Shown here in pieces: positions 421 to 30,736 of a DNA stretch of 34,454 nucleotides. Source of the stretch: Candidatus Nitrosomaritimum aestuariumsis. Its GTDB lineage: Archaea > Thermoproteota > Nitrososphaeria > Nitrososphaerales > Nitrosopumilaceae. The notes below the pieces were generated by a model. The model ran no database searches. It saw only the letters and a list, made by a program, of their open reading frames with translations, and was not told the DNA's origin. Within the stretch, counting starts at the first letter, position 1. Each line of letters starts with the position of its first letter. The position numbers and the translations under genes were made by a program. The DNA is taken from NCBI GenBank assembly GCA_013867335.1, contig JACEMX010000146.1, positions 1-34,454 of the forward strand, written 5' to 3'.

Positions 421-1121
421 GATAATTTTTTTGCCTCCTCAATTGAAATTTTGTTCTCATAAAGGGCTTTTCCTAAAATGACCCCAAATGGATTTTTTTC
501 TTTAACATTTTCTACATCTTTTGCATTAGAGATTCCGCCACTTGCAATGACATTGGCATTGAGATTGCAAGCTTTTTCCAAGAATTCTAAATCAGGACCT
601 TCAAGGGTTCCATCTCTATTGACATTGGTTAGTAAAAATTCGGTGAATCCCATTGCAAGAAAATCTTTGATTGAATCAATCAAGTCAATGTCGGTTCCTT
701 TTTGCCATCCATGAGTTACAATTTTGCCATCTTTGTGGTCAACTGAGATTACAATTTTTTCAGAGCCTAATTTTTCTAATAATTTTTTAAGAATTTCTTT
801 ATCTTTAAAGGCCAAAGTACCTATTACAATTCTTTTTGAGATATGAGCTGCATCCATAACTATTGATTCATCTCTTAGACCTCCTGCTATCTCAACTGGA
901 ATGCTGATATTTTCTATTATTTTTTTAATAATAGAAAGATTTGATCCCAATCCAAGGGTGGCATCAAGGTCAACGATATGAAGCATGTCTGCTCCATTTT
1001 TTTCCCATTTCTGGGCAATTTCAATTGGATTATCACTATAGACGGTTTTTTGTTTCGGATCCCCTTTGTAAAGTCGTACTACTTGTCCACTCATCAGATC
1101 AATTGCAGGAATTATTTTCAT
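417..1121 (-). CDS. hisA: HisA, phosphoribosylformimino-5-aminoimidazole carboxamide ribotide isomerase
   Basis: [21 protein letters not shown]..., [16 protein letters not shown] motifs; his operon context. Confidence 0.95.
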
Positions 1122-1726
1122 TTCTTACACTCGTTTAGAAAATTTTCAATCATAATAGTTCCAACTTTTCCTGATTTTTCTGGGTGAAATTGTGTTCCAA
1201 AAAAGTTGTCCTTCTCAACTACTGCTGGAACTTTAATCCCATAATCAGACTCTGCTGTAATTACATCATCTGATGTGGGTTTTGCTCTAAAAGAATGAAC
1301 AAAGTAAACCCATGATCCTTCCTTTACACCTTCAAGTATTTTTCCGGGTTTTTTTATCTCCAAATCATTCCATCCCATGTGAGGAACTTTTAGTGTTGGA
1401 GGTAGTTCAATTACTTCTCCACCAATTACGTTGAGCCCTTTTTCATGTCCTTCTTCGCTTTTCTCAAAAAACATCTCCATTCCAAGGCAGATTCCTAATA
1501 CAGGAGTTGTGTCTTTTACATAATCTTTGAATTGGATTTTGGAATGTTCGTTAATGCTTTTGATAGCTGGATCAAAGTTACCAACTCCGGGTAGTAGTAG
1601 ACCAGAGTAGTGATTAGGCTCATCAAATGTTGTAATAACATCTACCGTAGCTCCTGCGTTTTCTAGAGAGTTTTTGAGGCTGAAAATGTTTCCAGCACCA
1701 TAATCAAATATTGCTACACTTACCAT
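1118..1726 (-). CDS. hisH: Imidazole glycerol phosphate synthase glutaminase subunit HisH
   Basis: FDYGAGNIFSLKNSL, GICLGMEMFFEKSEE (nucleophile Cys), TQFHPEKSG. Confidence 0.95.
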   Translation of the reverse strand: MVSVAIFDYGAGNIFSLKNSLENAGATVDVITTFDEPNHYSGLLLPGVGNFDPAIKSINEHSKIQFKDYVKDTTPVLGICLGMEMFFEKSEEGHEKGLNVIGGEVIELPPTLKVPHMGWNDLEIKKPGKILEGVKEGSWVYFVHSFRAKPTSDDVITAESDYGIKVPAVVEKDNFFGTQFHPEKSGKVGTIMIENFLNECKK

Positions 1727-18941: not shown

Positions 18942-20465
18942 ATGGATAAAATAGTTGTTTTAGATTTTGGTTCGCAATACAGTCATCTTATCTGTAGAAG
19001 AATACGAGAGTTTTCAGTTTATGCAGAACTTGTTCCATATGATATTTCACTAGAAGAATTAAAAAAACATAATCCAAAGGGAATCATTTTTTCAGGAGGG
19101 CCATCAAGTGTATACAATTCAGATGCTCCAACTCCAGCTGAAGGAATTTTTGACACTAGTTTACCTCTTCTTGGAATTTGTTATGGACATCAGTTAATCG
19201 TAAACAAATATGGTGGAAAAGTAAAACGAGCAAACAAAGAATATGGTTCATCTCTGCTAACAATAGATAACGATAAAGATCTTCTGAGTGGAGTTGGTGA
19301 ATCCGTAAGAGCATGGATGAGTCATGGAGATGAGGCAGAAGAGATTCCTCCTGGTTTTCAAGTGATTGGTCATACTGAAAGTGCAAAGGCTGCTGCAATT
19401 GCTTCGGAGGAAAAATCAATTTATGGAATTCAGTTTCATCCCGAAGTTGTTCACACGGAACAGGGTACAGAGATTCTCAAAAATTTTGTTCTCAAAGTTT
19501 GTGGCGCTAGTCAAGATTGGACTATGGAGGGATTTATCGAAACCGAGGTAGAGAAATTATCAAAAATCCAAGGAAATGTCTTGTGTGGAGTAAGTGGTGG
19601 AATAGATTCTACAGTTGCGGCCTTGCTAATACATAGAGCAATTGGAGATAGGCTAAAGTGTGTTTTTGTAGATAATGGTCTTTTGAGATTAGATGAAGCA
19701 AAAGAAATTGAAGAGATGTTCAAGAATAATTTTAAGGTGAATTTTTCAGCTGTAGATGCGGGAGAAGTTTTTCTAGGTAAACTAAAAGGAATAGAAGATC
19801 CTGAGAAGAAAAGGAAAATTGTTGGTGAAGAGTTTGTTTCAGTTTTTACTGAATTTGCAGAAAAGAATGGCCCATTCAAATGGTTGGCTCAAGGTACTTT
19901 ATACCCAGATGTGATTGAAAGTGGAGTTTCAAAAGGTCCTGCATCAGTCATAAAATCCCATCATAATGTGGGCGGATTACCTGATTGGTTAGATTTAGAG
20001 GTATTAGAACCACTAAAGGAGTTGTACAAAGATGAAGTAAGGGAGATTGCAAAGATTCTAGAAGTTCCTGAGAAATTATTTATGAGACATCCATTCCCTG
20101 GACCAGGTCTTTCTGTAAGAATAATTGGAGAAATTACTCCGAAGAAACTTGAGATTTGTAAATTAGCTAGTAAAATTGTTGAAGAAGAGTTGATGGAAGC
20201 CAATCTCTACCAAAATGTTTGGCAGGCATATGCAGCAGTTGGAGATGATAAAGCAGTCGGAGTAGTAGGAGATGAAAGAAAGTATGGAAATATAGTGATG
20301 ATCAGAGTTGTTGATTCAATTGATGCAATGACTGCAGATTGGACAAGACTTCCACATGGGTTATTGGAAAAAATGAGCAATAGAATAACTAATGAAATTG
20401 AAGATGTGACTTGGGTTACCTATACAATTTCAAGCAAACCTCCAGCTACTATTGAGCCCCAGTAA
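18942..20465 (+). CDS. guaA: GMP synthase (glutamine-hydrolysing), fused GATase + ATP-PPase
   Basis: VLDFGSQYSHLICRRIRE, LLGICYGHQL, QFHPEVVHT, GVSGGIDSTVAA, HPFPGPGLSVRIIG. Confidence 0.96.
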   Translation: MDKIVVLDFGSQYSHLICRRIREFSVYAELVPYDISLEELKKHNPKGIIFSGGPSSVYNSDAPTPAEGIFDTSLPLLGICYGHQLIVNKYGGKVKRANKEYGSSLLTIDNDKDLLSGVGESVRAWMSHGDEAEEIPPGFQVIGHTESAKAAAIASEEKSIYGIQFHPEVVHTEQGTEILKNFVLKVCGASQDWTMEGFIETEVEKLSKIQGNVLCGVSGGIDSTVAALLIHRAIGDRLKCVFVDNGLLRLDEAKEIEEMFKNNFKVNFSAVDAGEVFLGKLKGIEDPEKKRKIVGEEFVSVFTEFAEKNGPFKWLAQGTLYPDVIESGVSKGPASVIKSHHNVGGLPDWLDLEVLEPLKELYKDEVREIAKILEVPEKLFMRHPFPGPGLSVRIIGEITPKKLEICKLASKIVEEELMEANLYQNVWQAYAAVGDDKAVGVVGDERKYGNIVMIRVVDSIDAMTADWTRLPHGLLEKMSNRITNEIEDVTWVTYTISSKPPATIEPQ

Positions 20466-26383: not shown

Positions 26384-26577
26384 AGAAAGATCATATCGAA
26401 ATTCCAAAACCATCAAGCAAATTCCAAAAAGTGGATTGTAGTGAGTGTGGAGAGCAGCAAATTGTGTACTCTCATGCATCAACAACTATTGCTTGCAACT
26501 CTTGTGGAAATAACATAGCAGAGCCAACAGGTTCTAAAGCAAAAATTAACGGCAAAATTTCAGGTAGTGCCGAGTAA
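26380..26577 (+). CDS. rps27e: Small ribosomal subunit protein eS27 (S27e)
   Basis: FQKVDCSECGEQQIVYSHASTTIACNSCGN zinc ribbon; ATGA overlap with L44e. Confidence 0.95.
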   Translation: MKKDHIEIPKPSSKFQKVDCSECGEQQIVYSHASTTIACNSCGNNIAEPTGSKAKINGKISGSAE

Positions 26578-27144
26578 GACATAGTCTTCTTTTGTATTTA
26601 CATTAAATCCTATTCTCTTATCATCTATAATTACAAAATTTTCTTCAATGTTATCCAAGTTGGAAATTTTTTTAGAATTAATCATGGAAATTCCAGAGTA
26701 ATAACAAACTTGATTCTCATAATTAACCTCATAATTTGAAGAGATTCCTAATTTTTTCAGAAAGTTTTTTGTAACAAGAATTGAAGTCCAAAGATGATTC
26801 TCATCGTATAAGGATGTAATTTTTTTAATTATGTTTTGATCTAATAGTGGCAAATCAGCTGAGGTAACAAAGACAGAATCTCCTATAGATTGTAGTATGT
26901 TGTTTAAATCTTGTACATAACCTTGGCCTGTTGAATCAATTATTTTATAATTATTTTCTAAAAGTAACTTTTTTGTTTTTGGAGAATTTGGGCTGGTGAT
27001 GAAAATAATTTCAGAAAAACAATCAGAATCAGATAAAGCATCAGCTACATGTAAGATTATAGGTTTTTTGTACGGTAGTAATAATTTTTCATCAGATGAT
27101 TTCATTCTACTGCCTTTACCACCAGCCATCACAATTGCAATCAT
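26560..27144 (-). CDS. cobY: GTP:adenosylcobinamide-phosphate guanylyltransferase CobY
   Basis: MIAIVMAGGKGSRMKSSDEKLLLPYKKPII, SVFVTSADLPLL; cobalamin operon context. Confidence 0.85.
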   Translation of the reverse strand: MIAIVMAGGKGSRMKSSDEKLLLPYKKPIILHVADALSDSDCFSEIIFITSPNSPKTKKLLLENNYKIIDSTGQGYVQDLNNILQSIGDSVFVTSADLPLLDQNIIKKITSLYDENHLWTSILVTKNFLKKLGISSNYEVNYENQVCYYSGISMINSKKISNLDNIEENFVIIDDKRIGFNVNTKEDYVLLGTT

Positions 27145-27866
27145 AATGAAACAAATACCAAAACTGATGCTAGACGAGATAATTCATTTGCTGTTCCTAA
27201 AATATCGCCTGTAATTCCACCAAAACTTCTCGTAGATAAAGCAAGTAAAAATAAAGTTAGAGTTGTTCCAGCCGCAAAAATAATCATTCCTGTAGTTCCT
27301 CCTAATGCAATTAATGGGATTAAGGTGATAGTTGTTGTAACTAGGAGTTTTTTTCTATTTTTCATTAGTTCAACAAAAGGAGAATTTGAGCCTACAGATG
27401 CAGATTTTCCTAAACTAGCCATCAAAACCATAGAATATTTTGCAACAATTTCACTAAGCAGGATTGCTAAAAATAATTCAAAGCCACCAGAAAGAGAGAA
27501 TGCTATAATCAAACCAACAAGATACAAAACAATAGCAACAATACCAGCTGATCCTGTTGCTAAGTCCTTCATTGCAGAGAGTTTTTTTTCTTTTGTACCC
27601 TTTGTCATAAGGCCGTCTGCAAAATCTGCCAAGCCATCAGTGTGATGAATACCGGTAATCAATGCAAGAGAAGCTACTACAAGAAGACTTACAATCAAAG
27701 GATCTAGAAAGAAAGAAAGGCCAAACCCTATGGAACCAACAAGTAAACCAATTGCTATTCCAACAATTGGAAAAAGATACATGTATTTTGCAACAGTTTC
27801 AAGATTTGCACTACCAGTTGGAATTATCGTAAGAAATGAAAATATGGATCCTATTTCTTTAAGCAT
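27141..27866 (-). CDS. cobS: Adenosylcobinamide-GDP ribazoletransferase CobS
   Basis: IGSIFSFLTIIPTG, GIHHTDGLADFADGLM, SFGGITGDILGTANE. Confidence 0.92.
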   Translation of the reverse strand: MLKEIGSIFSFLTIIPTGSANLETVAKYMYLFPIVGIAIGLLVGSIGFGLSFFLDPLIVSLLVVASLALITGIHHTDGLADFADGLMTKGTKEKKLSAMKDLATGSAGIVAIVLYLVGLIIAFSLSGGFELFLAILLSEIVAKYSMVLMASLGKSASVGSNSPFVELMKNRKKLLVTTTITLIPLIALGGTTGMIIFAAGTTLTLFLLALSTRSFGGITGDILGTANELSRLASVLVFVSL

Positions 27867-28830
27867 GAACCCACCATCCTAAATAAGAAAGCAATAGAAC
27901 CAATGGAATCACTACAATTCCACTGAAAATAATTGATGTAATTTTCATAATAGATATTGCTGATTTAACATGGTCTTTGGAGAATTCAACATCCCCATCG
28001 CCTAATGAATAATGATTTAGCTTTTCAAATCTGGTTTCCAATGCACCAGCTATTGCTGCCATAGGGTAACCTGCATTCGGACTTGTTGTTTTTCTTCCAT
28101 CACGCATCATTATCTTGTATGAATTTTGCCAGTTATGCCCTAGAATCATGGCACTAAGAACCATTGTTAAGGCTGTCAGTCTGGAGGGAAGATAGTTTAA
28201 GATTTTATCACAGTTGGCAGCAAACCATCCAACGTTTTTGAAAATATTATTTTTGTATCCAATCATAGAATCAGCAGTGTTTATTGCACGATAAACAAAA
28301 GCGCCTGGCAATCCGAATAGTCCAAAATAAAATAACGGTCCAGTAACCCCATCCACCGTATTTTCGCTTACACTTTCGATGACGCCTGAAAACACATGAT
28401 TTTTGTCAAGATTCTTAGTATTTCGTTTCACAATCATGGATAAGTTATCTCTAGCTGCTACAATGTCATTGTTTTCAATTGAGTGTACTACTGCCAAGGC
28501 ATGTCTCTCCATTCCCTTTACGGCAAGAGTTGTTTTTAGAAGAATTCCACTTACAATGATAGAAATTACAATTGTTAGTATATCGGTTGTAATTATATCA
28601 ATTCCCATATCTAAGAAAATAATTAATGATGCAACAATTCCACATACGCTAAGAATCAAAATTATTCCTGTAAATTTTTCTATCAAATCAGACGAGTTTT
28701 TACAAAATGGTGTTAGTTTGGCAATTAAAGAGCCAATCCATGCAGTTGGATGATACTTATTTTTGGGATCACCCAAAGTAAAGTCTAGCAACAAAGCAAA
28801 GAAAATTATCGAGAGAGATTCTATGATCAA
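27859..28830 (-). CDS. cbiB: Adenosylcobinamide-phosphate synthase CbiB
   Basis: LLLDFTLGDPKNKYHPTAWIGSLI, ENTVDGVTGPLFYFGLFGLPGAFVYRAINTADSMIGYK, SPNAGYPMAAIAGAL. Confidence 0.93.
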   Translation of the reverse strand: MIIESLSIIFFALLLDFTLGDPKNKYHPTAWIGSLIAKLTPFCKNSSDLIEKFTGIILILSVCGIVASLIIFLDMGIDIITTDILTIVISIIVSGILLKTTLAVKGMERHALAVVHSIENNDIVAARDNLSMIVKRNTKNLDKNHVFSGVIESVSENTVDGVTGPLFYFGLFGLPGAFVYRAINTADSMIGYKNNIFKNVGWFAANCDKILNYLPSRLTALTMVLSAMILGHNWQNSYKIMMRDGRKTTSPNAGYPMAAIAGALETRFEKLNHYSLGDGDVEFSKDHVKSAISIMKITSIIFSGIVVIPLVLLLSYLGWWVHA

Positions 28831-29666
28831 TTTATCATCCTTTCTATTTGTTTAAAGTTGAGATTAGAATATACCAGTTTACTTAGTTTCTCAATTTCTT
28901 GATCTATTTTTTCTAAATTTTTTTTAGTCCATGCGATATCTTTAGGTTTTGCATTTAGGGAATCTTCTTCAGGAAGATCAAAGTCAAACATTGGAATAGT
29001 TCCTAACACAGGTTTTTTTGTTTTTTCTTTTATTTTTCTGAATCCAGGTTTGAGGATTTTTACATCTCCCCTGAATTTGTTAATTACAAAACCTTTGATT
29101 AAATTTTGATGTTTTTTATCCAACAAAGCCAAAGTTCCTACAATACTTGCAAAGGAACCCCCTCGATCAATGTCAGTGACTAGTAGAACAGAAGAGTTTA
29201 CTTTTTCAGCCATCTTCATGTTTGCTATATCAAATTTATCTAAATTAATTTCTGCAGGAGAACCAGCACCTTCTAAAATTACAAAGTCATGTTTATTTTC
29301 GAGAGATCTGATGGATCTCAAGGCAGTTTTTAATCCCTGAGATCTTACAAATTTTTCATAGTATTGTTTAGCGTGCATTTTTTTGTATTTTTTTCCTAGC
29401 AAAAATACGTCACTGTAGTAATCCCCCAATGGTTTTAGCATAATTGGATTAAGATCAGGCGTGATTTCACATCTAGCGGCCATTGCCTGTATGGCCTGGG
29501 CACGAGAAATTTCAAACCCTTTCCACTTGTAACCGAAATTAGACATGTTTTGTGACTTGAAGGGGGCAACTGAAAATCCCTTATTTGAAAAAATCCTACA
29601 CAATGCAGTAACTAAAGTAGTTTTTCCAGCCCCAGATGAAGTTCCTTGAATCATTAATGATTTCAT
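28827..29666 (-). CDS. cbiP: Cobyric acid synthase-like protein (CbiP/CobQ) consisting of the N-terminal ATPase domain only
   Basis: MIQGTSSGAGKTTLVTALCRIF, APFKSQNMSNF, EGAGSPAEINL, DIDRGGSFASIVGT, INKFRGDVKILKPG; 279 aa, ends without a GATase domain. Confidence 0.88.
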   Translation of the reverse strand: MKSLMIQGTSSGAGKTTLVTALCRIFSNKGFSVAPFKSQNMSNFGYKWKGFEISRAQAIQAMAARCEITPDLNPIMLKPLGDYYSDVFLLGKKYKKMHAKQYYEKFVRSQGLKTALRSIRSLENKHDFVILEGAGSPAEINLDKFDIANMKMAEKVNSSVLLVTDIDRGGSFASIVGTLALLDKKHQNLIKGFVINKFRGDVKILKPGFRKIKEKTKKPVLGTIPMFDFDLPEEDSLNAKPKDIAWTKKNLEKIDQEIEKLSKLVYSNLNFKQIERMIN

Positions 29667-30736
29667 ATTTCTTTCAGAGCCCTCAGGAGTTTTTGATTTT
29701 CTTTTCTTTTTTTTACTGCTATTCTAATAAAATTATGATCTAGTCCTCTAATGTTGCTGCAGTTTCTAATCAATATTTTTTTCTGCAAAAGTTTTTTTTG
29801 CAATTCATCTGAATCTATTTTTGTTTTAATTAAAATAAAATTGGTGGTGGAATCATAGCAATCAAATTTATCTAATTTAGAAATATTTGCTTTTAGATAA
29901 TTTAATTCTTGTAAAATTAATTTTTTAGATTTGATCAAGTAATTGGGTGTGGATATAGATTCTTTTGCAGCCTGTTGAGCTAAACCGGAAACATTCCAAG
30001 GAATTTTAATTTTATTTAAAATGGAAATTATTTTTTTTGAGCTAACTCCATAACCAATCCGAATACCAGCTAGTCCAAAAGATTTTGTCAATGAGCGAAG
30101 TATGATTAGATTATCATTTTTCTTAACCAGATCTATGATTGATTCTTCATGTTGTGGTACTAGTTCTATAAAACATTCATCAACAAACATCAGACAATTA
30201 TTTCTCTTTGCTTGAGAAAGTATTTTTTTTAAATTATTTTTAGAAATAAGATTCCCAGTGGGATTATTAGGATTACAAATGAATATGCATCCATTATTTG
30301 GTAATTTTGAAATAAAATTATCAATATCTTTTTCTAAATCAAATGTTTTGAAAAAGGTTATTTTAGCTCCGGATAATCTAGCAGCTGCCTCATATTCTCC
30401 AAAAGTGGGAATGGGAATCAGAACTTTGGTTTTAGATGATAGAAAAGATCTACAAAAATTATAGATTATTTCAGTAGCTCCATTTCCTACTACAATTTGT
30501 GATGAAGGTATTTTGGTGTATTTTTGTAAAATTTTTCTCAAATCAGATGATTCAGGATCTGGATAAATAGACAAGGTCTTAAGATTGCTTTTGATGGATT
30601 TCACAGCTTTCGGAGTAGGACCTAAAGGATTGATGTTTGAGCTAAAATCAAGGATTTTAGGGTCAGGATTGGGAATAGAGTAAATTCCTCCATGAGATAC
30701 GGGTTTATGAGAAATTATTGTTGAATCAAGTTTCAC
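29663..30736 (-). CDS. cobD: Threonine-phosphate decarboxylase-like aminotransferase (CobD/HisC-like)
   Basis: HGGIYSIPNPDPKILDFSSNINPLGPTP, VGNGATEIIY, NPNNPTGNL, RSLTKSFGLAGIRIGYG; first gene of the cobalamin operon; GTG start. Confidence 0.85.
   Translation of the reverse strand: MKLDSTIISHKPVSHGGIYSIPNPDPKILDFSSNINPLGPTPKAVKSIKSNLKTLSIYPDPESSDLRKILQKYTKIPSSQIVVGNGATEIIYNFCRSFLSSKTKVLIPIPTFGEYEAAARLSGAKITFFKTFDLEKDIDNFISKLPNNGCIFICNPNNPTGNLISKNNLKKILSQAKRNNCLMFVDECFIELVPQHEESIIDLVKKNDNLIILRSLTKSFGLAGIRIGYGVSSKKIISILNKIKIPWNVSGLAQQAAKESISTPNYLIKSKKLILQELNYLKANISKLDKFDCYDSTTNFILIKTKIDSDELQKKLLQKKILIRNCSNIRGLDHNFIRIAVKKRKENQKLLRALKEI

Follow-up and report, generated by a model that had tools for sequence, protein, structure and literature searches.

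In a 34,454-nt stretch of DNA from Candidatus Nitrosomaritimum aestuariumsis (hereafter, the window), we identified a cobyric acid synthase (CbiP) that retains its ATP-dependent synthetase domain and its C-terminal helices and lacks the glutaminase (GATase) domain between them. We consider it probable, though well short of certain, that this protein is an ammonia-dependent cobyric acid synthase, whose GATase activity disappeared at, or close to, the emergence of archaeal ammonia oxidation and whose GATase domain was subsequently deleted, probably on more than one occasion. Our search of the open-access literature, with subscription journals outside its scope, found no prior description of the missing CbiP GATase domain.

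The cbiP locus and its product

The cbiP gene occupies positions 28827–29666 on the minus strand and encodes, from an ATG start, a protein of 279 amino acids; the plus-strand reading of this interval contains many stops, and the real open reading frame is that of the minus strand. It lies in a tight minus-strand run composed of cobD (threonine-phosphate decarboxylase-type aminotransferase; 29663–30736), cbiP, cbiB (27859–28830), cobS (cobalamin synthase; 27141–27866) and cobY (NTP:AdoCbi-P nucleotidyltransferase; 26560–27144), which were assigned from their reading frames and from gene order in relatives, and it overlaps both of its neighbours by 4 bp. As the original prediction had stated, the cbiP stop codon overlaps cbiB; the overlap is with the TTG start of cbiB (TTGA, 28830–28827), so that no GATase remnant lies between the two genes. 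The order cobD-cbiP-cbiB-cobS-cobY is shared by amoA-bearing genomes from four families and by one amoA-negative relative, the one exception being cobY, which was unmatched at one contig end. Because this gene order is common to the amoA-bearing families and the amoA-negative relative, the orthology of cbiP is secure.

The NCBIfam model NF001989 (cobyric acid synthase) matched the product with 333.1 bits against a cut-off of 273, and only positions 1–245 of the 480 in the model were aligned. The equivalog cut-off of TIGR00313 was not reached (292.9 versus 309.9 bits) and the C-terminal half of that model remained unmatched, a shortfall that is what the loss of half the model would give. A Pfam search with the protein matched the CbiA/AAA_26 synthetase domains and returned no GATase_3. 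The synthetase domain, a DTBS-like P-loop amidoligase, spans residues 1–240 (28947–29666, minus strand, as are all features of the protein given below) on the evidence of Pfam, an AF2 model and PDB folds, and every synthetase motif quoted in the original prediction was found in the product. In the P-loop QGTSSGAGKT (residues 7–16; 29619–29648), Q7, G8, S11, G14 and K15 are at least 95% conserved across intact and excised CbiP, as are D165, I166, G169 and G170 of the DIDRGG motif (residues 165–170; 29157–29174). The EGAGSPAE motif (residues 132–139; 29250–29273) is kept in the aligned CbiP, with one SPVE variant, except in the distant CbiP of family f20, which has EGTGAPTE at this place. The AF2 model (pLDDT 85.6, pTM 0.89) found its best PDB fold matches among dethiobiotin synthetases, with a TM-score on the target of about 0.7; a direct sequence search of the PDB gave no significant match.

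It had further been predicted that the GATase was excised and the terminal helix kept, and this was borne out by comparison with full-length relatives. In an alignment with 14 intact and 3 degenerate (pseudo-GATase) homologues, the sequence jumps from the end of the synthetase to the last ~30 residues of full-length CbiP, which places an excision scar at about residues 242–255 (28902–28943), where the relatives carry a GATase of ~200 amino acids. An HMM built from the C-terminal 34 residues of 26 excised proteins matched the extreme C terminus of all 15 longer CbiP in a small test set (E values of 2e-10 to 7e-4) and nothing significant elsewhere in these 15 proteins. The retained residues 248–279 (28830–28925), homologous to the C terminus of full-length CbiP by the tail HMM, form two confident helices in the AF2 model (248–268 and 271–278), and CobB/CobQ have been described as having an additional C-terminal helix outside the GATase fold (PMC5871853). 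Because GATase_3 is missing and the original C-terminal helix is present, we infer an internal excision and not a truncation. An assembly or frameshift artefact was ruled out, because far more than a hundred independent genomes, complete ones among them, show the same architecture.

The window protein thus shares with CbiP/CobQ (EC 6.3.5.10; NF001989, TIGR00313) the synthetase domain with its P-loop, EGAGSPAEI and DIDRGG features, the C-terminal helix, the operon neighbours and common ancestry; its position inside the CbiP tree and within a conserved B12 operon upheld the predicted assignment to the cobyric acid synthase family. However, it does not meet the feature of the glutamine-hydrolysing class, a C-terminal GATase_3 with a Cys–His pair (Pfam, alignment), and, without a glutaminase domain, it is itself unable to hydrolyse glutamine. 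It is a CbiP by descent and by core sequence, but it stands outside the glutamine-hydrolysing definition EC 6.3.5.10. Against the sister amidotransferase family of the same pathway it scored 40.5 with a cut-off of 254, and the CbiA of the same genome is a separate protein that keeps its GATase, including the Cys and His motifs. Dethiobiotin synthetase (BioD), the closest solved fold, is likewise a standalone amidoligase-type P-loop enzyme without a GATase, but it differs in substrate and reaction (CO2, ring closure), and the window protein reached only 23.7 of the 83.3 bits set as the bioD cut-off.

GATase decay and excision across the class

We surveyed 232 genomes of the class with at least 90% completeness, of which 193 had a CbiP match; families carry f labels, f1 being Nitrosopumilaceae and f8 being only inferred to be Nitrososphaeraceae. 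All 14 CbiP from five amoA-negative families (f6, f7, f13, f14 and f20) were full-length with the GICGG/GVCGG, EIH and HG-F motifs, and the remaining 179 CbiP-positive genomes (hand count) belonged to the amoA-bearing families f1, f2, f3 and f8. No intact GATase was found in the CbiP of these four families, in which not every protein was read. Among the matches listed, those from amoA-bearing families end near the synthetase boundary except in G038 and G099, with two or three running past stop codons; the matches not listed, which were not individually read, score like excised ones (E values of 1e-50 to 1e-94), and intact CbiP matches had E values of 1e-112 to 1e-190. The GATase is excised in Nitrosopumilaceae, in the probable Nitrososphaeraceae family (f8) and in a probable Nitrosocaldus genus (the GC content of G037, 42.3%, fits Nitrosocaldus and that of G099, 31.7%, fits Nitrosothermus, by published GC ranges; PMC7819960). 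We saw amoA in 125 of 136 f1 genomes and missed it in one f8 bin; the bins without amoA in these two families were attributed to genome incompleteness. At the phylum level, every further match that passed the family cut-off covers the model wholly or for the most part. No CbiP match was obtained for G146 (a 98%-complete Nitrosopumilaceae bin), G151 and G199, nor for the families f9, f10 (amoA-negative) and f12.

The three full-length CbiP from amoA-bearing genomes, all of them basal, were considered as counterexamples and rejected, their GATases lacking catalytic residues. In G099 a GATase-sized region is kept, in which the nucleophile Cys has become Asp (GICGG to GIDEG) and the His motif is absent; in G038 and G054, both of f3, the Cys is kept, the catalytic His has become Tyr and the EIH motif is lost. 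Cys94 and His189 are both essential in GatD, and only the Cys and the His are conserved in CobB/CobQ (PMC5871853). Since one or both of these residues are lost in the three proteins, their pseudo-GATase domains are most likely inactive. A working CbiP GATase was therefore apparently absent from all amoA-bearing lineages sampled in the domain survey of ammonia-oxidizing archaea, a check that the original prediction had proposed; judged from sequence, the loss spans every archaeal ammonia-oxidizer lineage sampled, the domain having been either excised or stripped of catalytic residues.

In a tree built from shared columns only, with the GATase region left out, all 29 CbiP from ammonia oxidizers formed one clade (support 100/99), within which those of f1 and f8 grouped together (98/98). 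How G099, f3 and the Nitrosocaldus-like genus branch relative to one another was not resolved, and the gene tree allowed a single excision as well as several (AU p about 0.4 in both cases). G099 and the excised Nitrosocaldus-like genus belong to the same GTDB family, and if they are true sisters there must have been at least two excisions; the domain was probably deleted more than once. Four residues, L43, K80, Q86 and Y143, are invariant in intact CbiP, and every pseudo-GATase protein and most of the excised ones differ at these positions. This pattern, with the positions not placed on the model, suggests that the synthetase may have become uncoupled from the GATase before the latter was deleted.

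The association of GATase loss with amoA gave a Fisher probability of 1e-21 at the genome level, where relatedness is ignored, and of 0.008 at the level of lineages (5 versus 5), where independence is still overstated, the oxidizers being one clade. The domain could have decayed neutrally in a single ancestor, its match to amoA being coincidental, an account that concerns the cause of the loss and not the nitrogen donor and is compatible with other explanations; we regard it as a real possibility, if an unlikely one. The amoA link rests on one clade of CbiP, effectively one origin, so that shared ancestry alone could produce it, and distant GATase-less CobQ-like proteins do occur in two genomes of non-oxidizers (G349 and G369). 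However, the domain decayed in parallel in different ways, with the nucleophile Cys replaced by Asp in G099, the catalytic His by Tyr in f3 and the GATase excised in the others, which fits a relaxed need for it throughout the group; the domain is lost from none of the amoA-negative CbiP, whether in the class or among the phylum-level matches above the cut-off; and the two distant proteins are only ~27% identical, lack DIDRGG and lie outside a B12 context on the contigs read. These two proteins, of 313–319 amino acids and with a similar C-terminal tail, were rejected as CbiP; they represent a different paralogue, and we assign them to an uncharacterised amidoligase-like family.

Source of the amide nitrogen

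We propose that the window CbiP is the sole cobyric acid synthase of this archaeon, an ATP-dependent amidoligase that acts on adenosylcobyrinic acid a,c-diamide and amidates its b, d, e and g positions. Its synthetase would activate each carboxylate with ATP, and the nitrogen donor is inferred to be free cytosolic ammonia instead of ammonia channelled from glutamine. GATase activity would have ceased to be needed when archaeal ammonia oxidation arose, or close to that time, and the domain would then have decayed and, probably repeatedly, have been deleted. In favour of this proposal, enzymes of the matching BioD-type fold work without any GATase, and CobB was reported to accept either glutamine or ammonia (PMC8123684). 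Against it, ammonia use is without biochemistry and is inferred only, and because CbiA (same pathway, same flux) and other class-I GATases are retained, ammonia cannot be a simple substitute for glutamine everywhere. It also counts against the proposal that many ammonia-oxidizing archaea live at very low external ammonium. A more specific scenario, in which CbiP passed from glutamine to ammonia dependence at the origin of the ammonia oxidizers, its glutaminase became catalytically dead and was then removed lineage by lineage, and four of the amide nitrogens of B12 come from ammonium, we hold to be evenly poised between right and wrong.

The main rival is that CbiP is still glutamine-dependent and that a separate glutaminase, either an orphan GATase or the GATase of CbiA, docks onto it and supplies ammonia in trans, which we think distinctly unlikely without being able to dismiss it. 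MurT–GatD shows that a CobQ-like GATase can indeed be encoded by a gene separate from that of its synthetase (PMC5871853), and MurT, like the window CbiP, is a synthetase polypeptide without a GATase of its own; however, MurT is a Mur ligase and not a DTBS-type synthetase, and it has a dedicated CobQ-like GatD in the same operon, whereas no such gene was found for the window CbiP. A search of its genome for a standalone CobQ-type GATase found none, the GATase_3 matches being CbiA and PurQ, and the gene-order comparison revealed no separate GATase_3 gene inserted beside cbiP. In 18 selected genomes, strong GATase_3 matches were frames of CbiA or CbiP size; weaker matches in frames of 200–240 amino acids read in f2 and f3 genomes were rejected as a CobQ-type partner, lying instead at PdxT or PurQ/HisH loci. 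HisH (1118–1726, minus strand) and GuaA (18942–20465, plus strand), both within the window, keep their GATase domains as predicted, and TrpG, CarA, GuaA, PyrG, HisH, PurQ and PdxT (names assigned by size and sequence) all retain theirs.

The best in-trans candidate was an orphan class-I GATase of 180–189 amino acids (C171:2559-3095 in the same genome as the window). Its GICYG nucleophile elbow and FHPE motif are intact. Nearly all ammonia-oxidizer genomes carry it, including G099 and G038 with their pseudo-GATases, mostly with E values of 1e-45 to 1e-89; no match of that strength was obtained in f13, f14, f6, f20 and G042, which have intact CbiP. The match in distribution is not clean, however: this GATase, or one closely related to it, is also present in G056 alongside an intact CbiP, and in f12 and G086 in the absence of any CbiP. 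It also lies outside the cob operon, belongs to PF00117 and not to GATase_3, and adjoins a C39-peptidase-like/TPR gene, a neighbour that suggests another pathway, and often a large membrane protein. Overall, the evidence leans towards free ammonia over a GATase in trans, and the question is not settled.

A second full-length CbiP, which would have refuted the original prediction, was not found in a profile search of the genome with NF001989, which recovered a single CbiP. Other ammonia-oxidizer genomes almost always had one match and few had two. In the single-contig genome G104 the two matches are one gene split by a break into two frames, and the cbiP of G106 is without its N-terminal part; either may reflect sequencing error or a pseudogene. 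Strong purifying selection acts on the synthetase half (pN/pS 0.08–0.22), 73 columns are conserved and identical between intact and excised CbiP, cobalamins are present in the culture medium of N. maritimus (PMC8281238), and both N. maritimus and N. viennensis can be grown without vitamins in the medium (PMC4303638). On these grounds the window CbiP most likely performs the whole cobyric acid synthase step, the four-fold amidation itself being inferred from indirect evidence only. That the protein has ceased to be a complete cobyric acid synthase (being inactive, acting on another carboxylate or performing some of the four amidations, with another enzyme completing the step) appears highly improbable, for although the defining domain is missing, the TIGR00313 score lies under the cut-off and residues 43, 80, 86 and 143 differ in most or all ammonia oxidizers, the catalytic motifs are intact and purifying selection persists, the gene is the only CbiP candidate in the genome and sits within the B12 operon, and ammonia oxidizers make cobalamin (PMC8281238).

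Consequences for vitamin B12 synthesis and gene surveys

In the literature, archaeal ammonia oxidizers count among the major marine producers of vitamin B12 (PMC4303638, PMC8123684). If the ammonia-dependent reading is true, four of the amide nitrogens of the vitamin from these abundant archaea would come straight from the ammonium pool, and a switch of nitrogen donor that coincided with the emergence of ammonia oxidation, and of which degenerate intermediates survive, would tie cofactor synthesis to energy metabolism. The protein would then be a natural, minimal cobyric acid synthase, and its architecture would give a genomic hint about ammonia levels inside ammonia-oxidizer cells.

Full-length models can miss the CbiP of ammonia oxidizers, which affects surveys made at the cut-off of TIGR00313, which served Doxey et al. 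as a marker model for cobalamin. In public MAGs, contigs carrying Nitrosopumilaceae cbiP were found under the labels Chitinophagaceae and Phycisphaerales, probably through binning contamination or mislabelling.
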